64,000 nt of DNA from the NCBI GenBank assembly GCA_025055115.1, contig JANWYJ010000040.1:1-64000 (forward strand). The letters are read 5' to 3'. The notes under the pieces were generated by a model that ran no database searches, was not told the origin of the DNA, and saw only the letters and a program-made list of their open reading frames with translations. Source of the DNA: Gemmata sp. Its GTDB lineage: Bacteria > Planctomycetota > Planctomycetia > Gemmatales > Gemmataceae. Of the stretch, positions 6,365 to 33,336 are shown in pieces. The stretch's first letter is position 1. Each line of letters opens with the position of its first letter. A program made the position numbers and the translations under genes.

Positions 6365-7048
6365 TCAGGCGGCGGTTTTCAGTTTCCGCCGAACGGCCCA
6401 GCCACCAAAAGCCCCCATCAGCCCCAGCACTGCCAACGTCGCCGGCTCAGGAACCGGATCACCCGGTCCGGGCTGGTTATCACGACTGTAGGTGAAGGTG
6501 AAGCTCGCACTCCCCGCCCCACCGGAGACAGTGCCAGGTGAACCAGGAGTAAATGTGAGTGGTTGCGAGCTACCCAAAAAATCGTAAATCGTCCCGATAG
6601 GCCCAAAGTCTATCGTGGTAAACGGTGATGTGATGCTTGTCAGAGTGGCTTGACCAGAGAAACTAACAACATTACTACCCAGATTGTTGGCTTGTGTGTT
6701 GCTAAGAGTGAACGTGGCAATTTTGCCTGCATCAGCACCCGTTCCGGTCACCGTGAACTGATTCGGAGCAGTACTCGTGATGACCACCGGTCCAGGATTG
6801 GTATTAAACCCCGCTACATTAATGTTCCATGTCGAGACAACATGGGGTGGAGAGATAAATGTCGAGGGATCTCCGTTATTTTGAATATAACTTGGGAGTA
6901 TACCCCCGGAGAATACGACCTGCTGTGGTGTGACTACGCTTGTACTCCCAAAGGTCACTTGGAAACTGTATACTGGTGCGGCGGTGGCGTTGCTCGCGAA
7001 GCCGAGGGCAACGACCGCGAAGAGGGCAACCGACGCGCTGCGAAACAT
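6365..7048 (-). CDS. PEP-CTERM sorting-domain protein
   Basis: This 227-residue exported protein has a signal peptide at about residues 1-23 (cleavage after SNATA). A beta-rich, Ser/Thr/Gly-rich body of about 175 residues follows. The C-terminal tag is a canonical PEP-CTERM signal: the VPEPAT box, a hydrophobic stretch (LAVLGLMGAFGGWAV) and the basic end RRKLK. The tag is known to be recognised by exosortases, and one is encoded directly downstream on the same strand, although a terminator separates the two. The body has no recognisable catalytic or binding motif. It is probably a surface or matrix protein. The base composition of the body (AT-richer, many ACT/AAC codons) differs from neighbouring genes, as is common for fast-evolving PEP-CTERM passengers. 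Confidence 0.92.
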   Translation of the reverse strand: MFRSASVALFAVVALGFASNATAAPVYSFQVTFGSTSVVTPQQVVFSGGILPSYIQNNGDPSTFISPPHVVSTWNINVAGFNTNPGPVVITSTAPNQFTVTGTGADAGKIATFTLSNTQANNLGSNVVSFSGQATLTSITSPFTTIDFGPIGTIYDFLGSSQPLTFTPGSPGTVSGGAGSASFTFTYSRDNQPGPGDPVPEPATLAVLGLMGAFGGWAVRRKLKTAA

Positions 7049-7328
7049 GATGCGGCCTCCGGACGGTTTGAGGCGTTAGTTGTGGGCGATGTAAAGTGTG
7101 TTGTGGGGGGCACAACGTCGCACTTCCTTAGCCAATCCGCTAGCTAAGGCCCGCAACTGTGACTCCTGAACTGTGGCTCCTGTGAGGGTGAGAATTTCTC
7201 TTCCCGTTTGTAATCTAGTAGTTAACCGGTCTGGCTGTAATTGCAAGACCAAGTTGACCAATTTCTCCCATTTTTTGGAATTTACGCTCAGAGCTGAAAA
7301 TATCGATAATCTGCCCTCAAGCGCAAAC

Positions 7329-8225
7329 TCAGTCGGATTCACCGATCTTTCCGTAAGATCGCGGAAGTACGACAAAAGTTCCCGATTCAGTTTTTTTCAA
7401 TCGAGCCTCAATCTCGGCAACAGTCGGTACCTGAGCTGCCGCGGCGACCGGGTCAAACTTCTCCCGACGCGGATGTGTCGGTTTTTCTGACACTTGGGGT
7501 GGATTTTCCAAATAACCCAAGCCGATTTGGGCGGCTCTCAGGTTGGGGTCGAGGGATAAGGCCAAGCGGTAGCGGTCTTTGGCCTCCGCGATCTTCCCCT
7601 GGGTCGCGAGTACAAAGGCAATGTTGCAGTGGGCATCCGGTTCCCGAACGGCTTTGCAGAAGGATCGATAACCTTCGTCGTATTGGCCCATCTGCGCTTG
7701 GGCCAGCCCTAGGTTGATCCAGGCTTTTTTGTGCTGCGGGTCGATCTGCACGGCTTTCCGCAAGGCGTCTTCGGCTTTCGCCCAATCGCCGCGGCAGTAG
7801 TGGCTGTAGCCGTAGTCGGTGAGTAAATCCGCATCCTTGGGATACTCTTTGAGAAGCGCTTCATATTCCGTTGTAGAACGTGTGAAATCCCCGATTTTGT
7901 CGTACAACACGGCCAAGCGGCGCGCCGCGGGCCGCTGGAGTGCCGGGTCTGTGGCCCGGGCCTGCTCATACATGCGGATGGCGTCCTCGATCCGGCCGTC
8001 TTTCTCGAAAAATTGCGCTGTGCGGAAGCACACATGCGCTTTTTCTTTCGCCGGAAGTTCTACGGGGGCCGGAGCTTTTGCCGCGGCATCCGGGCCGACC
8101 AAAAGCGGTGGGGTTTCGGTCCCCGTCAGGCCGGTGGTCAGTGCTGGGAGCTTGTCAGTTCCCTTGCAGCCGATGGCAACCGCCCAAGACAACCCCACCA
8201 CGACCCACAGTTTCGACCGCTTCAT
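7329..8225 (-). CDS. tadD: TadD-like TPR lipoprotein of the Tad/Flp pilus locus
   Basis: The protein has 298 residues. ATG 8225 is chosen over an in-frame start at 8309 because it follows a GGGGGA/CGGAT ribosome-binding region and opens directly into a lipoprotein signal, MKRSKLWVV...AVAIGC, with Cys near residue 20 as the lipidation site. Residues 60-240 hold four or five TPR units, for example AIRMYEQARATDPALQRP and AWINLGLAQAQMGQYDEGYR. The tail is charged. TPR lipoproteins called TadD are standard in tad loci, where they help the secretin assemble. The position after the secretin and the Gly/Phe-rich lipoprotein on the same strand supports that role. Sequence alone would not distinguish it from other TPR lipoproteins. 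Confidence 0.78.
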   Translation of the reverse strand: MKRSKLWVVVGLSWAVAIGCKGTDKLPALTTGLTGTETPPLLVGPDAAAKAPAPVELPAKEKAHVCFRTAQFFEKDGRIEDAIRMYEQARATDPALQRPAARRLAVLYDKIGDFTRSTTEYEALLKEYPKDADLLTDYGYSHYCRGDWAKAEDALRKAVQIDPQHKKAWINLGLAQAQMGQYDEGYRSFCKAVREPDAHCNIAFVLATQGKIAEAKDRYRLALSLDPNLRAAQIGLGYLENPPQVSEKPTHPRREKFDPVAAAAQVPTVAEIEARLKKTESGTFVVLPRSYGKIGESD

Positions 8226-18290: not shown

Positions 18291-19592
18291 ATGCCTCCGA
18301 CTCGACCCACTAGCGACTTCGACACCCGCTATCATCGGCTCAAAACCGAGATTCACAAACGCATCGTCGAAGCGCTCGATCTTTCCAAACTCAATCGTTG
18401 GGACCAGCACCGCATTCGTCGCGAGGTGCGGCATCTGGCCACGCAGTTGTGCGCCAGCGCCCCCGAACTGCTCAATGAAGTGGAACGGGAAAAACTCATC
18501 GAGGAGGTCATGTCCGAAGTTTTCGGACTCGGCCCCCTCGACCCCCTCATGGCCGACCCGACGATCAGCGATATTCTCGTCAATGGGCCGCACACGGTTT
18601 ACGTCGAACGTTTCGGCCGGCTCGAACTGACTCCGGTACGCTTCTACGACGATGCCCACCTGATGCAAATCATCCAACGGGTGGCCAGCCGCGTCGGACG
18701 CCGCGCCGACGAAATGACCCCAATGGTCGATGCCCGTTTGGAAGATGGCTCACGCGTCAATGCCATTATCCCGCCGCTGTCGTTGTCCGGCCCGGTGCTC
18801 TCGATCCGCCGCTTCGGGGTGCGGCTGAGCAACGAAGACCTCATCCAAAACCGCACGATGCCGCCGGAGATGGTGCGACTGTTCCAAGCAGCGGTCGAAA
18901 CACGGGTCAGTATCCTCATTTCTGGCGGCACCGGCAGTGGCAAGACCACTCTGCTCAATGCCCTGTCAGCGTATATTCCTGGTGATGAACGGCTGATTAC
19001 CATCGAAGATTCTGCGGAACTTCGCCTCCGGCAAAAACATGTCGTTTCGTTGGAAACGAAAATGGCGAATGTCGAGGGTGGCGGGGAGATTCGCCAGCGC
19101 GAATTGGTACGCAACGCCTTGCGCATGCGGCCCGACCGTATCATTCTGGGAGAAGTGCGCGGTGGGGAAGCTTTGGACATGCTGCAGGCGATGAATACCG
19201 GCCACGAAGGCTCGCTGACCACCATTCACGCCAACGATACCCGGGATGCTCTCACACGCTTGGAAATGATGGTGATGATGGCTGGGTTTGAATTACCCGT
19301 GCCGGTCATTCGCCACTACATTGCGACTGCGATTACCCTGGTGATCCAACTGGCACGCCTGAAAGGGGGCCGGCGCAAGGTGATGCGCGTTTCGGAGGTC
19401 GTAGGAACGGATCCGGCCCCCTACGACATCCGCGACATCTTTGGTTATCGGCAAACGGGGGTCAAAAACGGCCACGCGGTCGGAGAATTCTACGCCACAG
19501 GTTATAAACCGCGAATTCTCCAGAAGTTCCGCGCAATGGGGGTGGATGTGCCCGAGGAGTTGTTCCGCGAACGCACCTGGCCGGATACATAA
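18291..19592 (+). CDS. cpaF: Tad pilus ATPase TadA/CpaF
   Basis: This 433-residue cytoplasmic secretion ATPase has an AAGGAGCC ribosome-binding site upstream. An all-helical N-terminal domain is followed by the PilT/VirB11-type core. The Walker A is GGTGSGKTTLLNAL (about residues 210-223), the Asp box is ERLITIEDSAEL, the Walker B-like segment is RIILGEVRGGEALDML and the His box is GSLTTIHANDTRDALTRLEMM. These are the diagnostic motifs of CpaF/TadA, the motor that powers Flp pilus assembly with TadB and TadC, which follow. Confidence 0.95.
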   Translation: MPPTRPTSDFDTRYHRLKTEIHKRIVEALDLSKLNRWDQHRIRREVRHLATQLCASAPELLNEVEREKLIEEVMSEVFGLGPLDPLMADPTISDILVNGPHTVYVERFGRLELTPVRFYDDAHLMQIIQRVASRVGRRADEMTPMVDARLEDGSRVNAIIPPLSLSGPVLSIRRFGVRLSNEDLIQNRTMPPEMVRLFQAAVETRVSILISGGTGSGKTTLLNALSAYIPGDERLITIEDSAELRLRQKHVVSLETKMANVEGGGEIRQRELVRNALRMRPDRIILGEVRGGEALDMLQAMNTGHEGSLTTIHANDTRDALTRLEMMVMMAGFELPVPVIRHYIATAITLVIQLARLKGGRRKVMRVSEVVGTDPAPYDIRDIFGYRQTGVKNGHAVGEFYATGYKPRILQKFRAMGVDVPEELFRERTWPDT

Positions 19593-19621
19593 ACTCCAAA
19601 CTCCGACGGGAGGGGGAAACC

Positions 19622-20557
19622 GTGTTACTGGAGGTGGGATTTGCTGTCCTCGTGGCGGCCGCAGTGCTGGTGATCGCATTATCGATCCGCGCGATCATCA
19701 CCGCCCGGGAACAGGAAGCGAATCGGCGGCTGGCGGCCACCGACGACAGCGGTGTGTCGCTCAATGTCGTGTCGTTGATGGAGAATCCGCCGCCACCGAC
19801 GGCCCGACGGCGCTTCGACGATTGGTTTGAAAACGCCGTCAATCGCTCAGGATTGGAAGCATCTCCAGCCGGGGTGGTCGCGGTCATGTTGCTGCTCGCC
19901 TTATTATTCGGCGGCAGTTTGTATCTGTGGAAGGAACAACTGGGGTTGGCCGCCTTGGGAATCGTCTTGGGTATTGCCATTCCGGTGGGAGTGGTTGCAT
20001 TTTACTACCGGCAATATCGCTGGAGGCTCCAAGCCCAATTGCCGGATGCACTCCGGATGTTGGCTGGCTCGGTTCGGGCCGGTCAGACGATCGAACAGGC
20101 CATTGATTTCTACGCGAAACACGGCACTCAACCTTTGGCCGAGCATTTCCAACACTGCTCCGGCTTGATGCAACTGGGAATGTCGCCGGCGCGTGCTTTG
20201 GAAGCAACCGCCGCCCGCGTTCGCCTGCTCGATTTCGACATGCTGGTTTCCACGGTCAGTTTGTACCAACAGACCGGGGGGAACCTCATCTTGCTGTTAG
20301 AACGCCTGGCTGACAGCGTGCGCGACCGCAACAACTACCTGGGGCAATTCTTTGCCGCAACCGCGCAAGCCCGCGTAGTCGCAATTGCTATTGGGGCTGC
20401 GGCCCCGCTGTTTGTGCTGACCTATGTCTTGGTCGAACCCGAGCACGTTCAAAGCTTCATGAGTAGCACCACCGGTTGGACGGTTTTGGCAGTGTGCGCC
20501 ATTCTGGAACTCATCGGCCTGATTTGGTTGTGGCGGATTTTGCGCGTGGACTACTGA
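19622..20557 (+). CDS. tadB: Inner-membrane platform protein TadB
   Basis: This 311-residue membrane protein starts with GTG, supported by a strong purine-rich site (GGGAGGGGGAAACC). An N-terminal membrane helix, two helices near residues 85-125 and two C-terminal helices frame a GspF/T2SSF domain (LRMLAGSVRAGQTIEQAIDF and MLVSTVSLYQQTGGNL). TadB and TadC form the platform on which TadA acts. Its stop codon lies inside a 17-bp tandem duplication (20553-20586). Confidence 0.92.
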   Translation: MLLEVGFAVLVAAAVLVIALSIRAIITAREQEANRRLAATDDSGVSLNVVSLMENPPPPTARRRFDDWFENAVNRSGLEASPAGVVAVMLLLALLFGGSLYLWKEQLGLAALGIVLGIAIPVGVVAFYYRQYRWRLQAQLPDALRMLAGSVRAGQTIEQAIDFYAKHGTQPLAEHFQHCSGLMQLGMSPARALEATAARVRLLDFDMLVSTVSLYQQTGGNLILLLERLADSVRDRNNYLGQFFAATAQARVVAIAIGAAAPLFVLTYVLVEPEHVQSFMSSTTGWTVLAVCAILELIGLIWLWRILRVDY

Positions 20558-20586
20558 CATTGCACCGTAACTGACATTGCACCGTA
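20553..20586. repeat. 17-bp perfect tandem duplication across the tadB stop
   Basis: Two adjacent identical copies of ACTGACATTGCACCGTA occupy 20553-20569 and 20570-20586. The first includes the tadB stop codon. Confidence 0.92.
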
Positions 20587-20629
20587 ACGTCGGGGGCAAC
20601 CTCAGGGCCTTGTTGACGAGGGAATTGCA

Positions 20630-21649
20630 ATGGACGTGTGGATTTGGGCAGCGGCGGGAGGCATCGTCGCCATCATCTTCATCATCGGATTGGCCTATCT
20701 GACGCGCGACCGGCGGCCGAACACGGCCATTGCCGGGGCCGACTCATCGCCGGAATTGATTCTCGGCGACATGACGGAAATTCTGGCCGAAGGCTTGCCT
20801 GGCGAAACCCGTGACCGCGAGCAGGTTTCGCCCCTTCTGGCCCGTGCCGGGCTGTATGGAGCCAATGCCCTAGCCGAGTTTCGCGCGATCCGCGCCGTAT
20901 TAATTCTCACACCGTTGTTGTTAGCCGCGGCCGCGATGCTGTTGGTAGAACCCGCGCAGATGATCTACGTTGCCATCGCCGGGATTCTCTTGGCCGGGGC
21001 CGGCTTCTCACTACCGCGGTTGTATGTCGCTATGCGGGGCAACGAACGGACCCGGGAAATTGAACGCGGTTTACCCCTCTTCGCCGATATGCTCTCCATC
21101 GCCTTGCTCGCCGGTCAAGGTTTAACCGGAGCCTTGCGGCGCGTGACCACGCAACTCCGCGAACCATTCCCTCAAATGGCCGAAGAGCTGGAAATCGTCT
21201 GCCGGCAGTCGGAGCTTCTCAACCTTCATGCCGCCTTTGAACAATGGGCCAAACGCTCCCAATCCCCCGAAGTCAGCAATCTGGCCATGCTCCTCGGCCA
21301 AGCCCAGAAACTCGGTAACGATGTCACCGATGCTCTGCTCGAATATGCCAATCACTTACGCACCACCAATCGCCAACGGGCCGACGCCCGCGCCCAGCGC
21401 GCCAGTTTCTGGATGATGTTCCCTACGATTTTGTGCCTGTGGATTCCCGCGGCTGTTCTCATCGTCGCTCCGGTTTACTTCGAATTCCGCGAAAAACGCA
21501 CCAGCGTCCGCGAGCAACTGGAGAAAAATAGCGCCAACCCCCAGGTCAAAGAGTTCTTCAACCGCATGAAATCGGGTAACAACGGTCAATCGCCGAATCG
21601 GATGGGCTTCACCGACTCGCCCAACAACAACACCATCAACGGGAAATGA
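20630..21649 (+). CDS. tadC: Inner-membrane platform protein TadC
   Basis: This 339-residue protein has one N-terminal helix, a pair of helices near residues 90-130, the T2SSF domain (GLPLFADMLSIALLAGQGL then SNLAMLLGQAQKLGNDVTDAL) and a C-terminal helix (PTILCLWIPAAVLIVAPVYF). This is the TadC partner of TadB. A GAGGG site precedes the ATG by 7 bases. It is the last gene of the plus arm; the region beyond it is occupied by a 37-bp tandem repeat. Confidence 0.92.
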   Translation: MDVWIWAAAGGIVAIIFIIGLAYLTRDRRPNTAIAGADSSPELILGDMTEILAEGLPGETRDREQVSPLLARAGLYGANALAEFRAIRAVLILTPLLLAAAAMLLVEPAQMIYVAIAGILLAGAGFSLPRLYVAMRGNERTREIERGLPLFADMLSIALLAGQGLTGALRRVTTQLREPFPQMAEELEIVCRQSELLNLHAAFEQWAKRSQSPEVSNLAMLLGQAQKLGNDVTDALLEYANHLRTTNRQRADARAQRASFWMMFPTILCLWIPAAVLIVAPVYFEFREKRTSVREQLEKNSANPQVKEFFNRMKSGNNGQSPNRMGFTDSPNNNTINGK

Positions 21650-23819: not shown

Positions 23820-26783
23820 ATGAGTATTGCCTGCCCCTACTGTAAAGCGGTACTCAATCCCAAAGGCCTGAAACCGGGGCGTTTTCAACCGAAATGTCCC
23901 GGCTGTGGGAAACCTTTTGTGTTGGTGGTGGCCGACGACGCCCGCACAGTACGAGTGCAGGCGCTGCCCACGGCCCCCCCTCCGCCCCCCAAGCGAAAAC
24001 TGACACCAGAAGAACACGCGGCGTTATTGCTGGAGGGCAAGAATCCGGCCGACTACGGGGAGCCGCCCGACGTGGCCCGGCCACAACCTGCCCCCGGGGC
24101 GGGAACGATACCTGTCAAAACTCGGCCCAAGCCGGAGGGGCCACCAGCCCCAGCGCCGGTCGACCCCAACGTCACCGGGGATTTCACCGAGCCGGAAAGC
24201 CCCGCCCCATCCCCTGCGGTCCGGGCGAGCCGAACCATCACCGTCCATCAGCCGGACATGGACCCGAACGCCACCGGGGATTTCACGGAGCCAGAGCATT
24301 CCCGACGCCACAAGCTCGCGACGGCTGATCCGGGCGCCACTGGTGAATTCACGGAAGCCCAAGCGTCGTCCGCGGCATTTCACGACAAACCCACTCAGAA
24401 AGACCCAGCGGATGAGGTGATCGAAAAACCTCGGAAAAAATCCTCCCGCCCCGCCTCCGATTTGGCCGCGGAGTTCACCAGCGACGACGACAAACCGCCG
24501 CGACTGGGGGGCTACGAAGTGTTGAAGGTGCTCGGCAAAGGCGGTATGGGCGCGGTTCTCTTGGGGCGGCAGATTTCCTTGGATCGCAAGGTGGCCCTCA
24601 AGGTAATGCATCCGAAAATTGCGAAAAATCCTAGCTATGTGGCCCGCTTCACGCGCGAAGCCTATGCTGCAGCGCAACTGACCCACCACAATGTGGTGCA
24701 AATTTACGACATCGGGGAAGACAAAGGCCGCCATTTCTTCAGCATGGAGTTCGTTCAGGGCCAATCGTTAACCGACGTCATCAAAAAAGAGGGCAAACTG
24801 GCACCCGATGTGGCGGTCAACTACATTTTGCAGGCCGCCCGCGGTTTACGGTACAGTCACAACCAGGGGATGGTTCACCGCGACATCAAGCCCGACAATT
24901 TGCTCGTGAACACCGAAGGAATTGTCAAGGTGGCGGATTTGGGCCTGGTGAAGCTACCGGCGGGCGAACTCGAAAACCTCGATGCGGAAGAAACACCCGC
25001 GGAGGCCCGCGCGCCGCAACTGACCCACGCCGGCGCGGTGATGGGCACCCCGGCCTATATGTCGCCCGAACAAGCGACCGATTCGGCCTCCGTCGATGCA
25101 CGGGCCGATATCTACTCCCTCGGTTGCACCCTCTATGTCCTGCTAACCGGGAAACCCCCTTTCGAAGGCAAAACCGCTTTAGAAATCATCAGCAAACATC
25201 AGACCGAGCCGATTGTTCCCCCCGATGTTGTGGTGAAACGGGTTCCTCCCGCCCTCTCGGCCATCCTCATGAAGATGATGGCCAAAAAACCGGCCGACCG
25301 CTACCAATCGATGGACGAAGTGATCGCCGCTCTTGAGGGGTTTTTGGGTCTGGAACATGCCGGTACCTTCAACCCCAAGGAAGAACAGGCCGATCAGATC
25401 GAGAAATGCGCCCATCAATACCATTTCCGATCCAAGGCAGGGCTGAAGCGTTCCCTGACGATTGGCTTTTTCGTGGTGTGCTTGTTCGGCATGGTAAGTT
25501 CGGCTTTGGCAGGGCTGCCCGGCTTGGCCGGCGGCTTCTTGGGGCTGGCGATCATGACCCCGTTGGCGTATTTCGTCGTTCACGGCCTCTTCTCCGGGTC
25601 GATTGTCTTCAAAAAGGTCCGGGCGGTCGTGTTTGGCATGCGCGGGATCGATTGGCTCTTCTGGGGCGGGGGTGGCTTGCTGTTTCTGGCGACACTATAT
25701 CTGTTGGGCCTGTTGTGGTCGTGGTTGGGTTTTGCGGTTGTTGCCGTGGTTTTGGCGTTCGCCCTGTGGTGGGGCGTCGATCGCCGCGTCGCGCAGGAGC
25801 AGGAGAAACCCCTCGACGAGGCGCGCAGTCTGCTGCGGTCGCTTCGGGTGCAGGGTTTGGAAGAAGACGCGATCCGGCAGTTTGTGTGCAAGTACGCGGG
25901 GCCGTATTGGGAGCCGCTCTATGAGGCGCTGTTTGGTTACGAAGCGATGATCGCCGCGCGGGCTTCACGCAAGGGCGTGACCGGGGAAACGTGGAAGAAA
26001 TGCGCTACCTGGCGTGACCCGATTGTGCAATGGGCCGATGCCCGGATGGAAGCGCAACGGCTGGCACGCGAACGGGTCCACCTCCAGAAAGTCGAAGCCC
26101 AAGCCCTGGTCGCGGAAGGCGTCAGCCAGGCCGAAGCCCAAGCCCGTGCCGAAGAAATGGCCGCCCAGATGGTGGAACAGGCTGCGGAGGCCCACCAAGC
26201 CCGCCGCGAAGGCAAAGACGTAAACATCCGCGAACTCGTCGCGGCCGCACGCCAACGCCGTCGTCCGCAGCCCGGAATGACCATCGCGGGCAAAAAACAC
26301 CGCAACTTGTGGTTCAAAGATTTCATCAACAATTGGTTCGGCCGCCGCTTACGCCTGACGCTTGGCGCGGCAGTCTTCGCCGCAGGTCTATTGTGGCTGC
26401 ATCAAAATAACCTGCTGAAGGATAATCAGGCGATTACAGCTATCAGCCAAGGCGATCTGGAAGCCGCCCAAAAAGCCGCCACCGCCACCAGCCGCGCCAC
26501 CACGCAGCCCCTGAAAGTTCCAGGGAATATCGTCACAGTGCCCACGGAGTTGCAACCGGTCCTCAATACCTGGGCCTTGCCACTGACGGGGCTGATGTTA
26601 CTCCTCAACGGTTTGTTCTACTTCGGCTGGAGGCCGACCGTGGTTACTCTGCCGGGGGCCGCAATCGCCCTTTTCGGCCCCCAATTTGGTATCCCGGACA
26701 TCGACATCCTCACCGCCCAGCAACTGAGCTTGGCCATCGGGGCTGTTCTGATTTTGGTCATCGCTCGCTTCGTGCGGCAATAA
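23820..26783 (+). CDS. Membrane-bound Ser/Thr protein kinase with N-terminal zinc ribbon
   Basis: The protein has 987 residues. ATG 23820 is chosen over a TTG nine bases upstream because it opens directly into the zinc ribbon CPYC...CPGC (residues 5-30). A Pro-rich linker contains three copies of a D-P-x-A/V-T-G-D/E-F-T-E motif (about residues 118, 145 and 167). The kinase domain spans about 230-510: GKGGMGAVLLG loop, VALKVM lysine, HRDIKPDNLL catalytic loop, ADLGLVKL in place of DFG, and MGTPAYMSPEQ. Four hydrophobic helices follow (545-655), then a helical charged region (660-835) and three more hydrophobic segments to the C terminus. The next genes form a type VII-like set, so it may regulate that system. 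It has its own 157-base spacer from that set. Confidence 0.9.
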   Translation: MSIACPYCKAVLNPKGLKPGRFQPKCPGCGKPFVLVVADDARTVRVQALPTAPPPPPKRKLTPEEHAALLLEGKNPADYGEPPDVARPQPAPGAGTIPVKTRPKPEGPPAPAPVDPNVTGDFTEPESPAPSPAVRASRTITVHQPDMDPNATGDFTEPEHSRRHKLATADPGATGEFTEAQASSAAFHDKPTQKDPADEVIEKPRKKSSRPASDLAAEFTSDDDKPPRLGGYEVLKVLGKGGMGAVLLGRQISLDRKVALKVMHPKIAKNPSYVARFTREAYAAAQLTHHNVVQIYDIGEDKGRHFFSMEFVQGQSLTDVIKKEGKLAPDVAVNYILQAARGLRYSHNQGMVHRDIKPDNLLVNTEGIVKVADLGLVKLPAGELENLDAEETPAEARAPQLTHAGAVMGTPAYMSPEQATDSASVDARADIYSLGCTLYVLLTGKPPFEGKTALEIISKHQTEPIVPPDVVVKRVPPALSAILMKMMAKKPADRYQSMDEVIAALEGFLGLEHAGTFNPKEEQADQIEKCAHQYHFRSKAGLKRSLTIGFFVVCLFGMVSSALAGLPGLAGGFLGLAIMTPLAYFVVHGLFSGSIVFKKVRAVVFGMRGIDWLFWGGGGLLFLATLYLLGLLWSWLGFAVVAVVLAFALWWGVDRRVAQEQEKPLDEARSLLRSLRVQGLEEDAIRQFVCKYAGPYWEPLYEALFGYEAMIAARASRKGVTGETWKKCATWRDPIVQWADARMEAQRLARERVHLQKVEAQALVAEGVSQAEAQARAEEMAAQMVEQAAEAHQARREGKDVNIRELVAAARQRRRPQPGMTIAGKKHRNLWFKDFINNWFGRRLRLTLGAAVFAAGLLWLHQNNLLKDNQAITAISQGDLEAAQKAATATSRATTQPLKVPGNIVTVPTELQPVLNTWALPLTGLMLLLNGLFYFGWRPTVVTLPGAAIALFGPQFGIPDIDILTAQQLSLAIGAVLILVIARFVRQ

Positions 26784-26894
26784 TCCGGGGGACGATGGCC
26801 GCTGCGACGCGGCCTACGCCCCACCAACGATTGCGTTTCTTCTGGGTCACGAACGGTTGGGCGCGGAAAAGGCCGCACGAGGGGACTTTTGCGG

Positions 26895-26900
26895 TATAAT
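26895..26900 (+). promoter_or_regulatory. Possible -10 element (TATAAT) of the WXG100/ATPase operon
   Basis: GGTATAAT ends 39 bases before the WXG100-like start codon. No -35 match is evident. The position suggests that the four-gene set 26940-32003 has its own promoter. Confidence 0.4.
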
Positions 26901-26939
26901 GGTGAGGCACCCTCGTGATGCCGCTTCCGGAGCGAAGTC

Positions 26940-27212
26940 ATGTCCCAGGCCATCGTGGACCCCGCCGAGCTACGCCGCTTTGCCGGTAACCTCAAGCGCT
27001 TCAACGCCGATCTGCAAGCCGCTGTAGCCGGGCTACACGGGCAGTTGATGGCTTTAGGGGATAGTTGGCGTGACCAGGAACATGACCGCTTCCGGCAAGA
27101 GTTCGAAGCCACGATGCAAGTTCTCGAACGCTTCCTTGAGGTTTCGGAACAGCACATTCCCTTCCTGCTCCGCAAAGCCGAGCGGATCGAAGAATATCTT
27201 TCGCAACGGTGA
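26940..27212 (+). CDS. WXG100-like small protein (type VII secretion)
   Basis: The protein has 90 residues, with a GGAG site 7 bases before the ATG. It is predicted as two long helices joined by a turn, LMALGDSWRDQEHDRFRQEF. This is the WXG100 pattern, with W-R-D at the W-x-G position, as in many divergent family members. The length of about 100 residues, high helix propensity and absence of Cys agree. WXG100 proteins are substrates and partners of type VII ATPases. Such an ATPase is encoded three genes downstream, and the next start codon lies 3 bases after this stop. The family call is by pattern and is strengthened by context. Confidence 0.8.
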   Translation: MSQAIVDPAELRRFAGNLKRFNADLQAAVAGLHGQLMALGDSWRDQEHDRFRQEFEATMQVLERFLEVSEQHIPFLLRKAERIEEYLSQR

Positions 27213-27215
27213 GCC

Positions 27216-27848
27216 ATGTCGGCCGATGTTCGCGCGATTGACGCCCTCAGCCAATGGCGGGCCCAACTGGCCACCTACGGCGAGCTGTTGGCTGAGGCCC
27301 TGGCCGGGGTCAATTTGGAAATCCGTCGCGTCCACGAATGGCTCGACGAACAACTGACGCTCTGGAAACGAGCCATTCGGCAGTGTGAGGAGGACGTGAC
27401 CCGAGCCAAAGCGGAACTGGCGCAACGCCAATTCCCCACCTGGGACGGCCGCGAACCCGACTGCACGGTTCAGGAAAAGAATCTGCGGCAAGCCAAAGCC
27501 CGTTTGGAGTATGCCCAAGACAAAGTGGCTACCATTCGCCGTTGGATGACCCGGCTACCCCAGGTGATCGACGAAGTCTTCACTGGCCCTTCGCGCCGGC
27601 TCCAGTCGATGCTCGAAGCCGATCTGCCAACGGCCCTGGCGGAACTCAGTCGGCGGATCGCTGCTCTGGAAAGCTACGCCGGGTTGCGCCCCGATTACGC
27701 TCCCCTGGGGACAACAGCCACACTCATCAACCATCGCCCGCCACCGCCAGTAACCCACACCACCGCTTCGCAGGATCACAACACGCGCTGTTCCCCGTCG
27801 CCCGCAGCATCTCCGCCTGAAGATTCACCGCGTGAGGACAATTCATGA
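27216..27848 (+). CDS. Coiled-coil protein of the type VII-like operon, unknown function
   Basis: This 210-residue protein starts 3 bases after the WXG100 stop and overlaps the next gene by ATGA. Residues 1-155 are predicted helical with heptad patterns (EEDVTRAKAELAQRQ and NLRQAKARLEYAQDKVATIRRW). Residues 165-210 are Pro/Ser/Thr-rich and probably disordered. I do not recognise a family. Length and helix content would suit a chaperone or a secreted partner of the WXG100-like protein. Tight linkage to the ATPase argues for a dedicated component. Confidence 0.82.
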   Translation: MSADVRAIDALSQWRAQLATYGELLAEALAGVNLEIRRVHEWLDEQLTLWKRAIRQCEEDVTRAKAELAQRQFPTWDGREPDCTVQEKNLRQAKARLEYAQDKVATIRRWMTRLPQVIDEVFTGPSRRLQSMLEADLPTALAELSRRIAALESYAGLRPDYAPLGTTATLINHRPPPPVTHTTASQDHNTRCSPSPAASPPEDSPREDNS

Positions 27849-28066
27849 GATTCGGCACCACACGTAGCCAAATCTATGATGCTCAGAAAACAGCCCAAGC
27901 CCACTGGCTGGCGACCGAGGAATTTTGGACCGACGAAGTCCGCCGCGAACATGGCGAAAAGTGTGTTGTACCCCTCGATGCCGCAGTGAGCGATGTTTTA
28001 CGGGCGATTGACCAATTGGCGATCATCGCCACCCAACTACGCCACGAATGCGAATTCACCGGCTGA
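27845..28066 (+). CDS. 73-residue helical protein with W-x-D turn, possible second WXG100-like partner
   Basis: The start codon overlaps the previous stop (ATGA, 27845-27848), so translation is coupled. The 73 residues form a probable helical hairpin. ATEEFWTDEVRREHGEK can be laid beside the turn of the WXG100-like protein (GDSWRDQEHDRFRQEF), with W-x-D and the following basic/acidic positions matching. It then continues into an amphipathic helix (SDVLRAIDQLAIIATQLRHE). Being one of a WXG100-like pair is inference. The gene ends 40 bases before the ATPase. Confidence 0.75.
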   Translation: MRFGTTRSQIYDAQKTAQAHWLATEEFWTDEVRREHGEKCVVPLDAAVSDVLRAIDQLAIIATQLRHECEFTG

Positions 28067-28106
28067 TCCACGAGCTACTTCTCGACGCTGCAGGGCAAGG
28101 TGTCTG

Positions 28107-31100
28107 ATGTCGGAAAATCTCTTTGATTGTCAACGGGCCGCAATCGAACGGCTCCGCGAAGCCATTCGCACCCGGGCCACAGCCGAGGCGGAAATCACCA
28201 CCACGTTCCACCGCGCACGCGAGAAAGCCGAACGCGAGATCGCCCGGGCACGCCAAACCCATGCCACCGCCTTGGGGCAAGAACTCGCAGAACTCGAGGC
28301 CGCCCACACCGCGACCATCGAACGCATCGCTGCTGAATACAACGCCCAACTTTTGGCTCTCGAACAAAGCCGCGACGACCGCCGCCAACAGACCACCGCC
28401 CGTTTCACCGCCGCCCAACAGAAAGGGCAAGAAGATTACAACAATGACATCTGGAAACACGATTCTCTCCTGGAAGCCGGCGAGAAAGCGGCCCACGAGC
28501 AACGCGACGCTCTCCTTCGTAAAGCTGCCGCCGGGGAAGAGCAAATTCAATCCCTCCGGGCACAAATGGAATCCCTTCTGGCCCGAGTGCGGCTCCGTTC
28601 CGAACAGATCGCAGGCCAGACCGAACTCCCTCCGCCCAGCGACGACGATCCCATTCAGCGCCTGAACAAATGGCTGGCCACAGCCCGCGAACAGCTGACC
28701 GCTCTCCAAAACGCCGCCACGCCACGATGGGGCCATCCGCGGCGGCTACCGGTGCTGATCCTGCTGGGTATGGCCGTGGGTGCGGTCGCCGGCGTCATCC
28801 TCGATAACCCCTGGATCGCGACGATCGTCGCCGCCGCCGTCGGCCTGCTTGTAGGGACGAGCCTCTGGCTGTGGCTGCGGTCACGCGGCCGAGAAACCAC
28901 GCGGCAATTCGGCCAAGCCATCGCCCAGCATCTGGCCGAAGCTGCGCGCTCGGTACAACTCCTCCAGGACTTTGCTCAGTCAGAATTCAATGCCCAACTG
29001 CAACACTTACGCGACAAACATGCTCGCCGCCGCGAAAAAACCGACAACTACTACAAACCGCTGTTGGAATTACAAAAGAAGCAATTCGACGAAGAACTGT
29101 TGCGGATTGAAACGGAGTTTGCCACGGCCGCCGAATCGCTTCGCCGCCAACGCGGTCACGCCACCCGCGCCGCCGAAGACCACTACCGGACACGCAAAGA
29201 AGCCATTGAGGCTCGCCTCGGCCAGGAACTGAAAGCAGCTGAGGACGCCTATACCCAGGCCATCACCGCCGCCACCGCCGCCCGCGAGGCCGCGTGGAAC
29301 GCTATGACCAGCCGCTGGCAGGCCGCGGTGACGGAAGTCGAAGCCACCTTCGCCCGGCTCCGCCAAGACGGTCAGGAATTCTTCCCACCGTGGGAACAGT
29401 TGACAGCCTCACGGGCCTGGCCACAACGTGTTCCCGCGGGAATTCGCCTCGGCGACTGGCACTTTGATACCAACATCCTTCCCGAGCTTGCCACGACCGA
29501 TGGCCGCTGGCTCCTGCCGGGTTCTCTCAATGAACCGGTCCCCGCGTTCATTCCGTTTTCGGAGCGATGTTCCGTCTTGTTCCGCTGCCGCGACGATGGC
29601 CGCACCGCCGGAGTGCACGCCCTGCAGTCCCTCATGCTCCGGTTCTTGACCGGGTTGCCACCGGGGAAAGTCCGCTTCACCATTATCGATCCGGTCGGGC
29701 TGGGCGAGAATTTTGCCGCCTTCATGCATCTGGCCGATTATGACGAAAAGCTCGTCACCGCACACATCTGGACAGAAGCCCGGGACATTGAGCAGCGCCT
29801 GATCGACCTGACCGACCACATCGCCAGCGTGATCCAAAAGTACCTCCGCAATCAGTATCAGTCGATCGAGGAGTACAATCGGGCTGCCGGGGAGGTCGCG
29901 GAACCGTATCGCGTTCTGGTGGTCGCAAATTTCCCCACAAACTTTACACCGGAAGCCGCCAAACGGCTGGTGAGTATCGCGACCAGTGGCCCGGCGTGTG
30001 GGGTGTGTGTACTCACAACCGTCGATACTCGCGCCGCGATGCCCCGGGACTTCAACCTGGCGGATTTGGAAGCGGTCAGTTACACCGTGGCTTGGAAAGA
30101 GGGGAAATTCATCCCCAAAGACCCCCTCTTGGCTCCCTTCCCACCGCGGATCGACCCTCCGCCACCGCCAAGTACGATCGCGGACTTGGTCCGCCGCGTG
30201 GGGGCGGCCAGTCAAGAGGCTGTTCGAGTTGAAGTCCCCTTCGACTTCATTGCGCCTGCGCCCGATGCGGTATGGCAAGCCAGCGCCGCCAAAGGTTTCG
30301 AGGTGCCCATTGGCCGCGCTGGGGCGACGCGCCGGCAGGTTTTTTCACTCGGTCGCGGCACCGCCCAACACGCGGTCATCGCCGGCAAAACGGGTTCCGG
30401 CAAATCGACACTGCTGCACGCCCTGATCACTAATCTGGCCCTGACCTACAGCCCCGATGAAGCGGAACTCTACCTCATCGACTTCAAAGAAGGGGTGGAA
30501 TTCCAATGGTACGCCACGTATCGGTTGCCGCATGCCCGGGTTGTCGCCATCCAATCGGAACGGGAATTCGGTGTCAGTGTGCTGCAACGGCTCGATGGCA
30601 TTCTCCGCGAGCGTGGGGAGAAATTCCGCGACGCGGGGGTCAATGATCTGGCGGCCTATCGCGCCGCTCGGCCCGAGGAGAAAACCCCACGCATTCTTCT
30701 GGTCATCGACGAATTCCAAGCCTTTTTCACCGAAGACGACAAACTGGCGCAAGAAGCCGCTCTTTTGCTCGATCGTTTGGTCCGGCAAGGTCGGGCGTTT
30801 GGTCTCCACGTCGTGCTTGGCTCGCAAACGCTCGGCGGTGCCTATTCCTTAGCCCGCAGTACGATTGATCAGATGGCCGTCCGCATTGCGTTGCAATGTT
30901 CGGATGCCGACGCGCAACTGATTCTCAGCAAAGACAATACGGCAGCGCGGCTGCTGTCGCGCCCCGGGGAGGCGATCTACAACGACCAAAATGGCCTGAC
31001 CGAAGGCAACGATCCCTTCCAAGTGGTCTGGCTGTCAGAAGAACGTCGAGAACGGATTCTCGAAGAGTTGCATCGGCGCGCCGGCGACCGGTGGCCGCCC

Positions 31101-32003
31101 CCCTTGGTGTTTCAAGGCCATACCTCGGCCGATTTGGCCAACAACCGTGCCCTGGCCCAGCAACTGGCAGCGCCCAGTCCGGTCAAAGTTCCCACCGCCT
31201 GGTTGGGTGAACCTGTGGCCATCAAAGAACCGACCGCGGCCGCCTTCCGACCGCACGGTGGCATGAATTTGCTCATGGTCGGGCCGAATGAAGACGCTGC
31301 TCGGGCGCTGTTCGTCGCTTCGCTGCTGAGTTTGGCCGCTCAAGTGCCCGGAATACGCCTAACGATCTGCGACGGCACACCCGATGATGCCGACGCGGCG
31401 GACTATCTGCGACGGTTCGCGGCGTATTGGCCCCACGTTGTCGCTCCCGATCGCCTCGGGTTGGCCGCCGCATTGGCCGAATTGACCAACGACATCGACC
31501 AGCGCCAGAAGGGGGCTGCCGAACGCATGCCGCGATTCCTGTTCATCTTCGGGATTCAACGCTTCCGCGAATTGCGCAAATCCGAGGACGATTTCGGCTT
31601 CGGCCGTCGCAGCGAACGTGAACCATCCCCGGCCGAGCGACTGGCGGCCATCCTCCGCGAAGGCCCCCTGGTCGGGATTCATACCGTGGTGTGGTGCGAT
31701 TCCCTGGTGAATCTCAATCGGGCGTTCGACCGGCCGCTGGTGCGGGAATTCGGCATGCGCGTCCTCTTCCAAATGAGTGCCACCGACTCCAGTACACTGA
31801 TGGATTCACCCGCCGCCGCAAAGCTCGGGCGCTACCGAGCCTTGTTTGTGCACGAAGAACAAGAACGGGCGGAGAAGTTCCGACCCTACGGATTGCCGGC
31901 CACAGAATGGCTCAACGCCGTCAGCGCCATCTTGCGTTCCCGAAGTGAACTGACCGGGGTCACGGCAGACGGGGTTTCCCGCTCGGTTTCCACCCCGGCC
32001 TGA
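28107..32003 (+). CDS. FtsK/EssC-type type VII-like secretion ATPase with coiled coils
   Basis: The protein has 1298 residues. The start at 28107 (GGCAAGG upstream) is preferred to an open frame reaching back to 27993, which would overlap the 73-residue gene. Order: coiled coil (15-190), two membrane helices (212-255, LILLGMAVGAVAGVIL and IVAAAVGLLVGTSLWLWL), second coiled coil (260-435), then three FtsK-like domains. Domain 1 (about 480-715) lacks a P-loop. Domain 2 (about 730-1000) has a perfect Walker A, AGKTGSGKSTLLHAL (near 757), and Walker B LLVIDEF (near 866). Domain 3 (about 1045-1280) has GPNEDAAR at the P-loop position, so it is degenerate. Two membrane helices plus three tandem ATPase domains are the hallmark of EccC/EssC motors. 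The FHA domains of EssC are absent. Confidence 0.9.
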   Translation: MSENLFDCQRAAIERLREAIRTRATAEAEITTTFHRAREKAEREIARARQTHATALGQELAELEAAHTATIERIAAEYNAQLLALEQSRDDRRQQTTARFTAAQQKGQEDYNNDIWKHDSLLEAGEKAAHEQRDALLRKAAAGEEQIQSLRAQMESLLARVRLRSEQIAGQTELPPPSDDDPIQRLNKWLATAREQLTALQNAATPRWGHPRRLPVLILLGMAVGAVAGVILDNPWIATIVAAAVGLLVGTSLWLWLRSRGRETTRQFGQAIAQHLAEAARSVQLLQDFAQSEFNAQLQHLRDKHARRREKTDNYYKPLLELQKKQFDEELLRIETEFATAAESLRRQRGHATRAAEDHYRTRKEAIEARLGQELKAAEDAYTQAITAATAAREAAWNAMTSRWQAAVTEVEATFARLRQDGQEFFPPWEQLTASRAWPQRVPAGIRLGDWHFDTNILPELATTDGRWLLPGSLNEPVPAFIPFSERCSVLFRCRDDGRTAGVHALQSLMLRFLTGLPPGKVRFTIIDPVGLGENFAAFMHLADYDEKLVTAHIWTEARDIEQRLIDLTDHIASVIQKYLRNQYQSIEEYNRAAGEVAEPYRVLVVANFPTNFTPEAAKRLVSIATSGPACGVCVLTTVDTRAAMPRDFNLADLEAVSYTVAWKEGKFIPKDPLLAPFPPRIDPPPPPSTIADLVRRVGAASQEAVRVEVPFDFIAPAPDAVWQASAAKGFEVPIGRAGATRRQVFSLGRGTAQHAVIAGKTGSGKSTLLHALITNLALTYSPDEAELYLIDFKEGVEFQWYATYRLPHARVVAIQSEREFGVSVLQRLDGILRERGEKFRDAGVNDLAAYRAARPEEKTPRILLVIDEFQAFFTEDDKLAQEAALLLDRLVRQGRAFGLHVVLGSQTLGGAYSLARSTIDQMAVRIALQCSDADAQLILSKDNTAARLLSRPGEAIYNDQNGLTEGNDPFQVVWLSEERRERILEELHRRAGDRWPPPLVFQGHTSADLANNRALAQQLAAPSPVKVPTAWLGEPVAIKEPTAAAFRPHGGMNLLMVGPNEDAARALFVASLLSLAAQVPGIRLTICDGTPDDADAADYLRRFAAYWPHVVAPDRLGLAAALAELTNDIDQRQKGAAERMPRFLFIFGIQRFRELRKSEDDFGFGRRSEREPSPAERLAAILREGPLVGIHTVVWCDSLVNLNRAFDRPLVREFGMRVLFQMSATDSSTLMDSPAAAKLGRYRALFVHEEQERAEKFRPYGLPATEWLNAVSAILRSRSELTGVTADGVSRSVSTPA

Positions 32004-32181
32004 ACACCACGCCGCCATCCTCGGGACATCACACGGGGACAAGCGTCCTGGTCGGAAGGGCCAACCGCCCGAGCGATTCCGGCCTGGCCAGACGGCAGGC
32101 ATAACATAACGCAAAACCCACTTGTCGGAAGGAGCGTTGTTGCTCTAAGTTGGGCGGTGAAAAGCCATGGAGGGCTACGGG

Positions 32182-33336
32182 ATGGCCAAATTCTCCCTTC
32201 CCCGGGTTGCGATCGTGGGGGCTGGCCCCATCGGGATGGAAGCCGCTCTGTACGCGAAGGCCTGTGGGCTGCCGGTGAGCGTTTATGAGCGGGGCGAAGT
32301 GGGGGATCATCTCCGCCAGTGGGGTTATGTGCGTATGTTCACACCGTTTGGCTGGAATGTCACTCCACTGGGCCTGGCCGAACTCCGCCGCATCCGAGGT
32401 AGCCGCGACTTCCCCCAGCCCCGCGATAGTCTCACGGGTCAGGAGTTTCTCGAATCCTATCTGAGGCCCCTGGCCGAGTGCGAAACACTGCGCGGTAGCC
32501 TCCATTGGGGGCACACGGTCTGGCAAATCGGCCGGACACTGAACCGGACAAAGGCCGAGGTGAGTGAACGGGGGCCGTTCCGGCTGCTGGTAACAGATGC
32601 TAATGGCCAGGAACGGATCGCGGTGGCCGATGTGGTGCTCGATTGCACCGGGACTTGGGGCCATCCCAACTCGCTGGGCGATGGTGGCATTGCGGCCGTG
32701 GGGGAACGCGCCGCTCGGCCCCACATCGCCTGGGGGCTGGAAGACATTTGCGGCCCCAAGCGTGCGCACTACGCCGGCCGCAGCATCGCTCTTATCGGTG
32801 ATGGTTATTCCGCCGCCACCACCATCAGTGCCTTGGCCGAACTGGCCGACGAATTTCCGGAAACGTGGGTATTTTGGATTTCGAACGGCCCGCGCGGAGC
32901 GCCATTACCCCGTATTCCCCAGGATCCGCTCAAGGAACGGGATCGGCTTGCGGTGCGTGCCAATGCACTGGCGACACGCGGCGATGGCAATCTCGAATTC
33001 CACCCGCAAACTGTGATCGATGAAGTGATTTGTCACAATCCTGAAGGTGGCTTCCGTATTGCCGGGCGCAGCGCAGGCCGACCGGTGGTATGGGAGGTCG
33101 AGCGTATTATCGCGAATGTCGGTTACTCCGCCGATCTTGGTTTGTGTCGGGGTCTGCTCGTCGATCCGCCTGATCGGAAGCCCGAAACGCGTGAACCGGG
33201 CTATTACATTCTGGGGGTCAAAAGTTACGGCCGATATTCGGGTTTTCTGCTGCGCGATGGTTTCGAGCAAATCCGCCGTGTATTTGCCCAGATCATGGGC
33301 CAATCGCGGCTCGATCTTTACGCTCACGCCGCATGA
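32182..33336 (+). CDS. FAD-dependent pyridine-nucleotide oxidoreductase-like protein
   Basis: The protein has 384 residues. ATG 32182 has a GGAGGG site 7 bases upstream, which favours it over ATG 32167. The N terminus is a classical dinucleotide-binding fold: VAIVGAGPIGMEAALYAKACG, then VSVYERGE. A second nucleotide-binding motif, IALIGDGYSAATTISAL, lies near residue 203. The C-terminal GYYILGVKSYGRYSGFLLRDG resembles the FAD-contacting end of flavin oxidoreductases and monooxygenases. The reaction and substrate are not evident. A squalene-cyclase-fold protein follows after a 147-base spacer with a duplicated 38-bp element. Confidence 0.8.
   Translation: MAKFSLPRVAIVGAGPIGMEAALYAKACGLPVSVYERGEVGDHLRQWGYVRMFTPFGWNVTPLGLAELRRIRGSRDFPQPRDSLTGQEFLESYLRPLAECETLRGSLHWGHTVWQIGRTLNRTKAEVSERGPFRLLVTDANGQERIAVADVVLDCTGTWGHPNSLGDGGIAAVGERAARPHIAWGLEDICGPKRAHYAGRSIALIGDGYSAATTISALAELADEFPETWVFWISNGPRGAPLPRIPQDPLKERDRLAVRANALATRGDGNLEFHPQTVIDEVICHNPEGGFRIAGRSAGRPVVWEVERIIANVGYSADLGLCRGLLVDPPDRKPETREPGYYILGVKSYGRYSGFLLRDGFEQIRRVFAQIMGQSRLDLYAHAA

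Follow-up and report, generated by a model that had tools for sequence, protein, structure and literature searches.

A four-gene planctomycete module pairing WXG100-type hairpin proteins with an EccC/EssC-like ATPase

A four-gene core encoding a WXG100-family protein, a coiled-coil protein, a 73-residue protein, and an EccC/EssC-like ATPase is a real inherited unit, carried as one copy in many planctomycetes. We analyzed it in a window of 64,000 nucleotides (the whole stretch of DNA under study) from Gemmata sp. (GenBank assembly GCA_025055115.1, contig JANWYJ010000040.1, positions 1 to 64,000 of the forward strand). The encoded proteins have family relations, are conserved together in single copy, and are tied to one motor, which in some relatives is fused to a kinase. 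With modest confidence, we lean toward reading the core as a type VII-like module that stands alone, is inherited vertically, would move hairpin proteins and, in Gemmata-type relatives, would be regulated by a kinase.

Organization of the locus

All five genes of the locus lie on the positive strand. A kinase gene (23820..26783) is followed after 156 bases by the gene of the WXG100-family hairpin protein (26940..27212; 90 aa). The core continues with a long helical-hairpin, or coiled-coil, protein (27216..27848; 210 aa), the 73-residue protein (27845..28066), and the ATPase (28107..32003; 1298 aa), the successive spacings being 3 bases, an ATGA overlap, and 40 bases. Rechecking of the DNA returned the five open reading frames, their lengths, and their spacings as the sequence-only reading had given them.

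Pfam placed a Tad-type secretion ATPase, TadB/C-like proteins, a cytochrome, oxidoreductases, a hopene-cyclase-like protein, and a phospholipase B among the neighbors in the window. Little of this neighborhood is kept beyond near relatives. The upstream Tad pilus genes were considered as a link to T7SSg/h and dismissed as a coincidence, common only to the nearest relative. No defense genes were found among the window neighbors scanned with Pfam, and no VWA/TerY, PP2C, or McrBC genes adjoined the window copy of the module among the genes scanned.

The ATPase resembles EccC and EssC

The ATPase is EccC/EssC-like and is predicted to combine three ATPase folds with long coiled coils and a hairpin in the membrane. 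Its N-terminal region (aa 1-205; 28107..28721) is coiled-coil-like, with 54% E/K/R/Q/A and 9 Pro/Gly per 205 residues. A putative transmembrane hairpin follows at about aa 214-255 (28746..28871; hydropathy peaks, 2.59 and 2.11), and besides this hairpin, the part upstream of the ATPase folds contains two segments with many helix-forming residues. In a model of residues 425-1298 (pLDDT 84.6), three RecA-like folds are seen. The first (about aa 430-700; 29394..30206) is without a Walker A motif, and the third (about aa 1030-1270; 31194..31916) is degenerate. The middle fold carries Walker A, GKTGSGKS (aa 760-767; 30384..30407), and Walker B, LLVIDEF (aa 864-870; 30696..30716). The sequence-only reading had described two membrane helices and three tandem FtsK-like domains; the hairpin and the three folds stand, but only the middle fold appears to be catalytic. 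The same plan recurs in relatives: exactly one Walker A was present in 67 of 67 ATPases, always in the middle fold and never outside it, and all 67 had a DE Walker B. At least two membrane segments were predicted in 50 of 66 relatives and at least one in 62 of 66.

The FtsK_SpoIIIE family matched the ATPase at 1e-30. The best NCBIfam models were those of type VII EccCa, EccCb, and EssC (1e-28 to 1e-31), with scores far under the TIGR03924/5/8 equivalog cutoffs (109.6 versus 509 for one of them). A profile search aligned the middle fold with Thermomonospora curvata EccC (4nh0) at 7e-39, and also with EccC5 and YukB. Foldseek ranked EccC first with the model (1.2e-34), next EccC and EssC ATPases 2-3, and FtsK after these. 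An EccC/EssC-type motor, as had been proposed, is thus supported by profile and by fold, ahead of FtsK on E-value. The three folds may match EccC domains D0-D1-D2 or D1-D2-D3, and the assignment depends on the method: by sequence the middle fold would more likely correspond to D1, whereas in the fold alignment the middle and third folds pair with D2 and D3.

An FtsK-kind DNA translocase, served by helical accessory proteins in chromosome or membrane work, has to be weighed at this point. In VIA-align, the FtsK motor gave the best single-domain superposition of the middle fold (Z 31.8, 278 residues), and planctomycetes divide unusually. Yet when the middle and third folds were aligned together with ATPases 2 and 3 of EccC and EssC, Z was 28.3 and 28.7 over 490-500 residues, and this multidomain match favors EccC/EssC, as do the sequence models. 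The ATPase moreover has no FtsK_gamma domain detectable by Pfam, has a WXG partner, and coexists with a canonical FtsK encoded elsewhere in the genome. We regard a DNA translocase as very unlikely.

The small proteins are predicted helical hairpins

The 90-aa protein solidly matches the WXG100 family on profile comparison. PF06013 scored 37.2 bits against a curated cutoff of 27.3 (3.6e-9), and TIGR03930 matched under its cutoff. Among all solved structures, the best match of the WXG profile was Helicobacter pylori HP0062, over the full length, at 6e-12; Bacillus anthracis EsxB (3.8e-9) and the streptococcal and staphylococcal EsxA proteins were also matched, EsxA at 8.5e-5. The WXG100 assignment, on which the sequence-only reading had staked its proposal, is therefore borne out by both the Pfam and the PDB profiles, with W-R-D in place of W-x-G at the hinge (W43-R44-D45; 27066..27074, positive strand). 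The W and D columns are invariant. The hinge reads WRD in 42 of 47 sequences and WQD in the other 5, and W-x-G occurs in 0 of 47. The extended C-terminal pattern HxxxD/ExxhxxxH is present in 19 of 47 WXG proteins, and no YxxxD/E export pattern was found in the 90-aa protein of the window.

Pfam returned nothing convincing for the 73-residue and coiled-coil proteins. Iterated profiles of both absorbed the WXG family, so their E-values were discarded, and noniterated profiles were used with decoys and reversed sequences. The clean 73-aa profile matched WXG proteins down to 2.5e-7, compared with 0.13 for decoys (595 other proteins) and 0.0077 for reversed sequences; one higher decoy match proved to be a genuine 73-aa protein with another start. 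Its best PDB match was Staphylococcus aureus EsxA (0.0012), and hhalign gave the pairing with WXG a probability of at most 78%. The motif W28-T29-D30 (27926..27934, positive strand) has invariant W and D columns (n = 43 sequences). We take the 73-residue protein to be a shortened, diverged second WXG-type hairpin.

For the coiled-coil protein, a relation to WXG proteins is weakly suggested by a WXG-like N terminus. Across roughly the first 45 residues, its profile matched them at E-values as low as 1.6e-5, against 0.67 for decoys, and the hhalign probability was under 20%. An AlphaFold2 (AF2) model of the 210-aa protein consists of two long helices (residues 6-72 and 84-156; 67 and 73 residues) with pLDDT of about 97 and a disordered C-terminal tail. 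Fold searches with this model gave generic helical matches only, none of them specific; a match to the LXG fold ranked 40 among generic coiled coils. No nuclease domain was found by Pfam or in the AF2 model. In several Phycisphaerae-type records, an Imm33-like domain (1.4e-14) forms the end of the coiled-coil protein.

Conservation and inheritance of the core

The ATPase was found in 76 of 95 genomes of the window's own family, and in 58 of its 66 good genomes, so it is near-core there. Across 392 Planctomycetota genomes, 62 had an orthologue. This count is that of 70 matches minus 8 weak ones (E about 1e-15 to 1e-17), which are other FtsK-type ATPases. Viral contigs, and a second phylum approached through locus L192, yielded nothing. 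We read the DNA around 60 ATPase genes and around 80 named ones (the best 80 among the matches listed from the genome collection). Of the 60 loci, about three quarters had the order WXG, coiled coil, 73-aa protein, ATPase; within the best 80 listed, the full order was found in 40 of the 47 named loci whose upstream sequence sufficed. Sizes are stable at about 90, 160-380, 70-80, and 1300 residues, respectively. The four genes are thus kept together in relatives across Planctomycetota (60 plus 47 loci), the other point on which the initial proposal had been made to depend. Some loci with a 315-aa upstream gene had looked like variants carrying a replacement module; read by eye, that sequence is an acetyltransferase-like gene beside a transketolase-like gene.

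The WXG and ATPase genes occur together almost without exception. In the family, 70 genomes had both, 6 the ATPase only, 0 the WXG gene only, and 19 neither (Fisher, 4e-15); in the phylum (n = 392), the counts were 59, 3, 1, and 329 (Fisher, 3e-65), both values treating related genomes as independent, which they are not. The six family genomes with the ATPase only have its gene at, or apparently cut by, a contig end. The sole phylum genome with the WXG gene only is 61% complete. No WXG100 protein was found in the ATPase-less family genomes, and it is single-copy in 69 of 70 family genomes, the remaining one having a second, weak match. Mean pairwise identity was 56% for the WXG protein and 53% for the motor, compared with 31% and 30% for the other two small proteins. 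The equal conservation of WXG protein and motor is what one would expect if the WXG protein were a partner dedicated to that motor.

One could imagine that a generic ATPase and unrelated helical proteins are neighbors by chance, as coiled-coil proteins give many weak matches. This idea is refuted by the phylum-wide gene order and the near-perfect co-occurrence, and we give it virtually no credence.

In Pirellulaceae-like and other genomes, the small genes often lie away from the ATPase gene. Exactly one WXG gene, often with a coiled-coil gene adjoining, was nevertheless found in 20 of 21 genomes, which had been chosen mainly because the small genes do not adjoin the ATPase. In one such arrangement, the 73-aa gene is beside the ATPase gene, and the WXG and coiled-coil genes are at another site. 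Since co-occurrence persists without linkage, there is strong evidence that the WXG protein and the ATPase act together. Five genomes carry the ATPase and no WXG gene detectable even at E 0.1.

In the ATPase tree, the 26 rows of the window's family form a single branch (99/95), as do the 9 rows of another family (100/98). The tree therefore follows the taxonomy, and inheritance has been mainly vertical.

The unlinked small genes also bear on whether the module is complete. It could belong to a fuller type VII system whose planctomycete-specific membrane subunits are encoded elsewhere, and would then not be minimal; known type VII subtypes have membrane parts unrelated to each other (PMC11217815), and the parts of the module itself are scattered in the Pirellulaceae-like genomes. 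Against this, no further gene adjoining the module is conserved across families, and profiles of EccB, EssB, and YukD/EsaB had no match in the whole genome at E≤1. The latter result extends the absence of EccB and EssB, first noted at the locus, to the entire assembly. We judge a fuller system improbable.

Kinases at the locus

The 987-aa protein upstream of the core has a zinc ribbon followed by a Ser/Thr kinase domain (Pkinase, 2.3e-49, with VALK, HRDIKPDN, and DLG present) and five hydrophobic segments between residues 548 and 981, taken as membrane segments of its C-terminal part. It is an accessory gene limited to near relatives. Full-length relatives precede the WXG gene in loci L036 and L045, and genomes G014 and G017 each have an orthologue some 1.3 kb upstream. 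At the same place in L042 and L046, the kinase is reduced to its zinc-ribbon N terminus, and in G088 and in genus g24 the orthologue is at another genome site. A 1027-aa upstream gene in L037, considered as a kinase, encodes a WD40 protein.

A different kinase domain is fused in frame to the N terminus of the ATPase in six genomes (G014, G015, G016, G019, G022, and G087). Where complete, these fused domains have the catalytic motifs. The proposal that phosphorylation gates the module gains from these kinase-ATPase fusions in related genomes and loses from the position of the kinase outside the conserved set. The predicted kinase control is well supported as a lineage-specific addition, and not as part of the core.

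Proposed function

We suggest that the ATPase acts as an inner-membrane motor driven by its middle ATPase fold, with two-helix hairpins lining a pore in a hexamer, as in EccC. The two short W-x-D hairpins (90 aa and 73 aa) would assemble with the long hairpin protein into a helical complex, which would dock on this motor. The motor would then move the complex, most likely across the cytoplasmic membrane, in the manner of WXG100/LXG/Lap or EsxAB. In Gemmata-type relatives, a fused or neighboring Ser/Thr kinase may regulate the motor by phosphorylation.

Because transport is itself inferred, the reading that the module works like a type VII system, the best supported one, has about an even chance of being correct. 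Export by the module is plausible. It is argued against by the lack of any other conserved membrane component, outer-membrane route, or effector sign: in the family genomes, no signs of secreted effectors were found, each genome having one WXG100 protein, with no expansion. The five genomes with the ATPase and no detectable WXG gene are also counted against it. The motors of the related CoCoNuT operons are reported to be without membrane helices (PMC11090510), and export is therefore not obligatory for the family.

A rival reading is a membrane-tethered stress or defense machine derived from the TerY-P/CoCoNuT operon, in which a nonexporting motor, working on the inner side of the membrane, would remodel or gather hairpins or else move nucleic acid. 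The kinds of genes, the ATPase with one active fold, and its N-terminal coiled coil are as in the CoCoNuT operon (PMC11090510), Ser/Thr kinases are associated with such genes (PMC4978471) and with the planctomycete loci alike, and neither effectors nor extra membrane parts were found. The vertical, near-core, single-copy spread in the family's good genomes is, however, unlike that of a mobile defense element. The membrane hairpin is kept, the scanned neighbors in the window include no defense genes, and PADLOC reported generic ATPase and kinase matches only. We hold such a machine to be unlikely, if the most serious competitor to a type VII-like exporter.

A stronger form of the type VII-like reading is tentative and, in our view, doubtful: that the module is a complete inner-membrane protein exporter of a diderm phylum, with the ATPase as its sole membrane protein and a dedicated triad of WXG-type hairpins. 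Such an exporter would be near-core in Gemmataceae, and the kinase switching it would, in some species, belong to the same polypeptide as the motor. In the literature consulted, type VII secretion has been catalogued from Actinomycetota and Bacillota, and scattered diderm WXG100/FtsK pairs have been noted without functional study. A phylum-wide, single-copy, stand-alone diderm version provides a defined system for a minimal type VII-like motor set, and the fusions of kinase and motor open control by phosphorylation to direct testing.

Comparison with known systems

The catalog of Garrett et al. 2024 (PMC11217815) distinguishes ten type VII subtypes, T7SSa to T7SSj, every one of them from Actinomycetota or Bacillota. 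These systems pair EccC, EssC, or TsxC with EsxA or TsxA, have four NTPase domains, and frequently include kinases. WXG100 proteins have been found almost only in Actinomycetota, Bacillota, and a few Chloroflexi (Poulsen et al.). The planctomycete module shares with type VII systems an EccC/EssC-type motor with two membrane helices, a WXG100 partner, and frequent membrane kinases. It differs in that its ATPase folds number three instead of four, with a single catalytic one, and in that its motif is W-x-D in place of W-x-G; it is without EccB, EssB, YukD, or known substrates and belongs to a diderm phylum. YukD/EsaB is missing from T7SSd too. On the motif, the domain number, and the accessory parts, the module falls outside type VII proper.

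No paper on the module in planctomycetes was found in a search with little coverage of subscription journals. The implied novelty of a minimal set in a diderm did not hold, because the H. pylori HP0062/HP0066 pair and the TerY-P/CoCoNuT operon are published precedents (PMC4978471, PMC3397514, PMC11090510). HP0062/HP0066 has been termed a minimal type VII set, with an FtsK/SpoIIIE-domain gene in the cluster (PMC4978471, PMC3397514). HP0062 shares the W-R-D motif (WRD aligned to WRD; PMC3397514), the full-length match, and a diderm host. The orphan HP0062 structure thereby becomes part of a large, conserved family whose motor partner is fixed.

In size and number, one long helical hairpin with two short WXG-type hairpins recalls the LXG-Lap and EspB/PPE-PE complexes (PMC11217815), from which the long planctomycete protein differs in being without a toxin domain.

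As described by Bell et al. 2024 (PMC11090510), the EssC-like ATPase of CoCoNuT loci has three folds, of which the central one alone is active, and a long coiled coil at its N terminus. The operon also encodes a nuclease with a coiled coil and a pair of WXG100 proteins, and in other settings it may work as a secretion system on its own (PMC11090510). The TerY-P/type III-A CoCoNuT WXG100-FtsK operon thus resembles the planctomycete module in ATPase architecture, in two WXG100-type proteins (one of them diverged in the module), in the coiled-coil protein, and in kinase association. In contrast, the planctomycete ATPase possesses a membrane hairpin as well as a second coiled coil, and the coiled-coil protein ends in a disordered tail, or in the Imm33-like domain in Phycisphaerae, instead of a nuclease. 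The module is also a vertical single copy, with no VWA, TerY, or McrBC near the window copy. On these comparisons, it is best described as a new version of a predicted type VII-like machine, set apart by its hairpin, the missing nuclease, and its vertical single-copy inheritance.

Kinase fusions and module variants

In six genomes (those of loci L042, L045, L046, L024, L020 and L017, read around relatives of the window ATPase), the type VII-like ATPase carries a Ser/Thr kinase domain fused in frame at its N-terminus. L045 encodes two kinases, one fused to the ATPase and one separate. Several copies of the motif TG[DE]FTE are also present in L045; the window kinase carries three, in the linker N-terminal of its kinase domain (window 24174-24362, residues 119-180). 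These may possibly serve as phospho-acceptor or docking repeats.

In the Phycisphaerae-type records L148 (gene at 6584-7645), L170, L196 and L200, the coiled-coil protein ends in an Imm33-like domain, a domain named after immunity proteins of polymorphic toxins (PF24719, best E-value 1.4e-14).

The WXG gene was not detected, even at E 0.1, in the ATPase-bearing genomes of L169 and L192 or in G313, G430 and G471, which represent either ATPase-only lineages or incomplete genomes. The ATPase gene of L192, a record titled Anaerolineae (Chloroflexota), is broken and 49% identical to the planctomycete ATPase; it could stem from transfer or contamination, or the record could be mislabelled.

Flanking genes

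Located 3' of the window ATPase gene is a gene for a FAD-dependent oxidoreductase (32167-33336), an arrangement shared by about a dozen near relatives. A Tad-type secretion ATPase gene and two TadB/C-like genes (18291-21649) lie approximately 5 kb upstream of the module. Clusters of the type VII subtypes T7SSg and T7SSh likewise adjoin Tad genes; the Tad genes near the window module, however, are shared with its nearest relative only.
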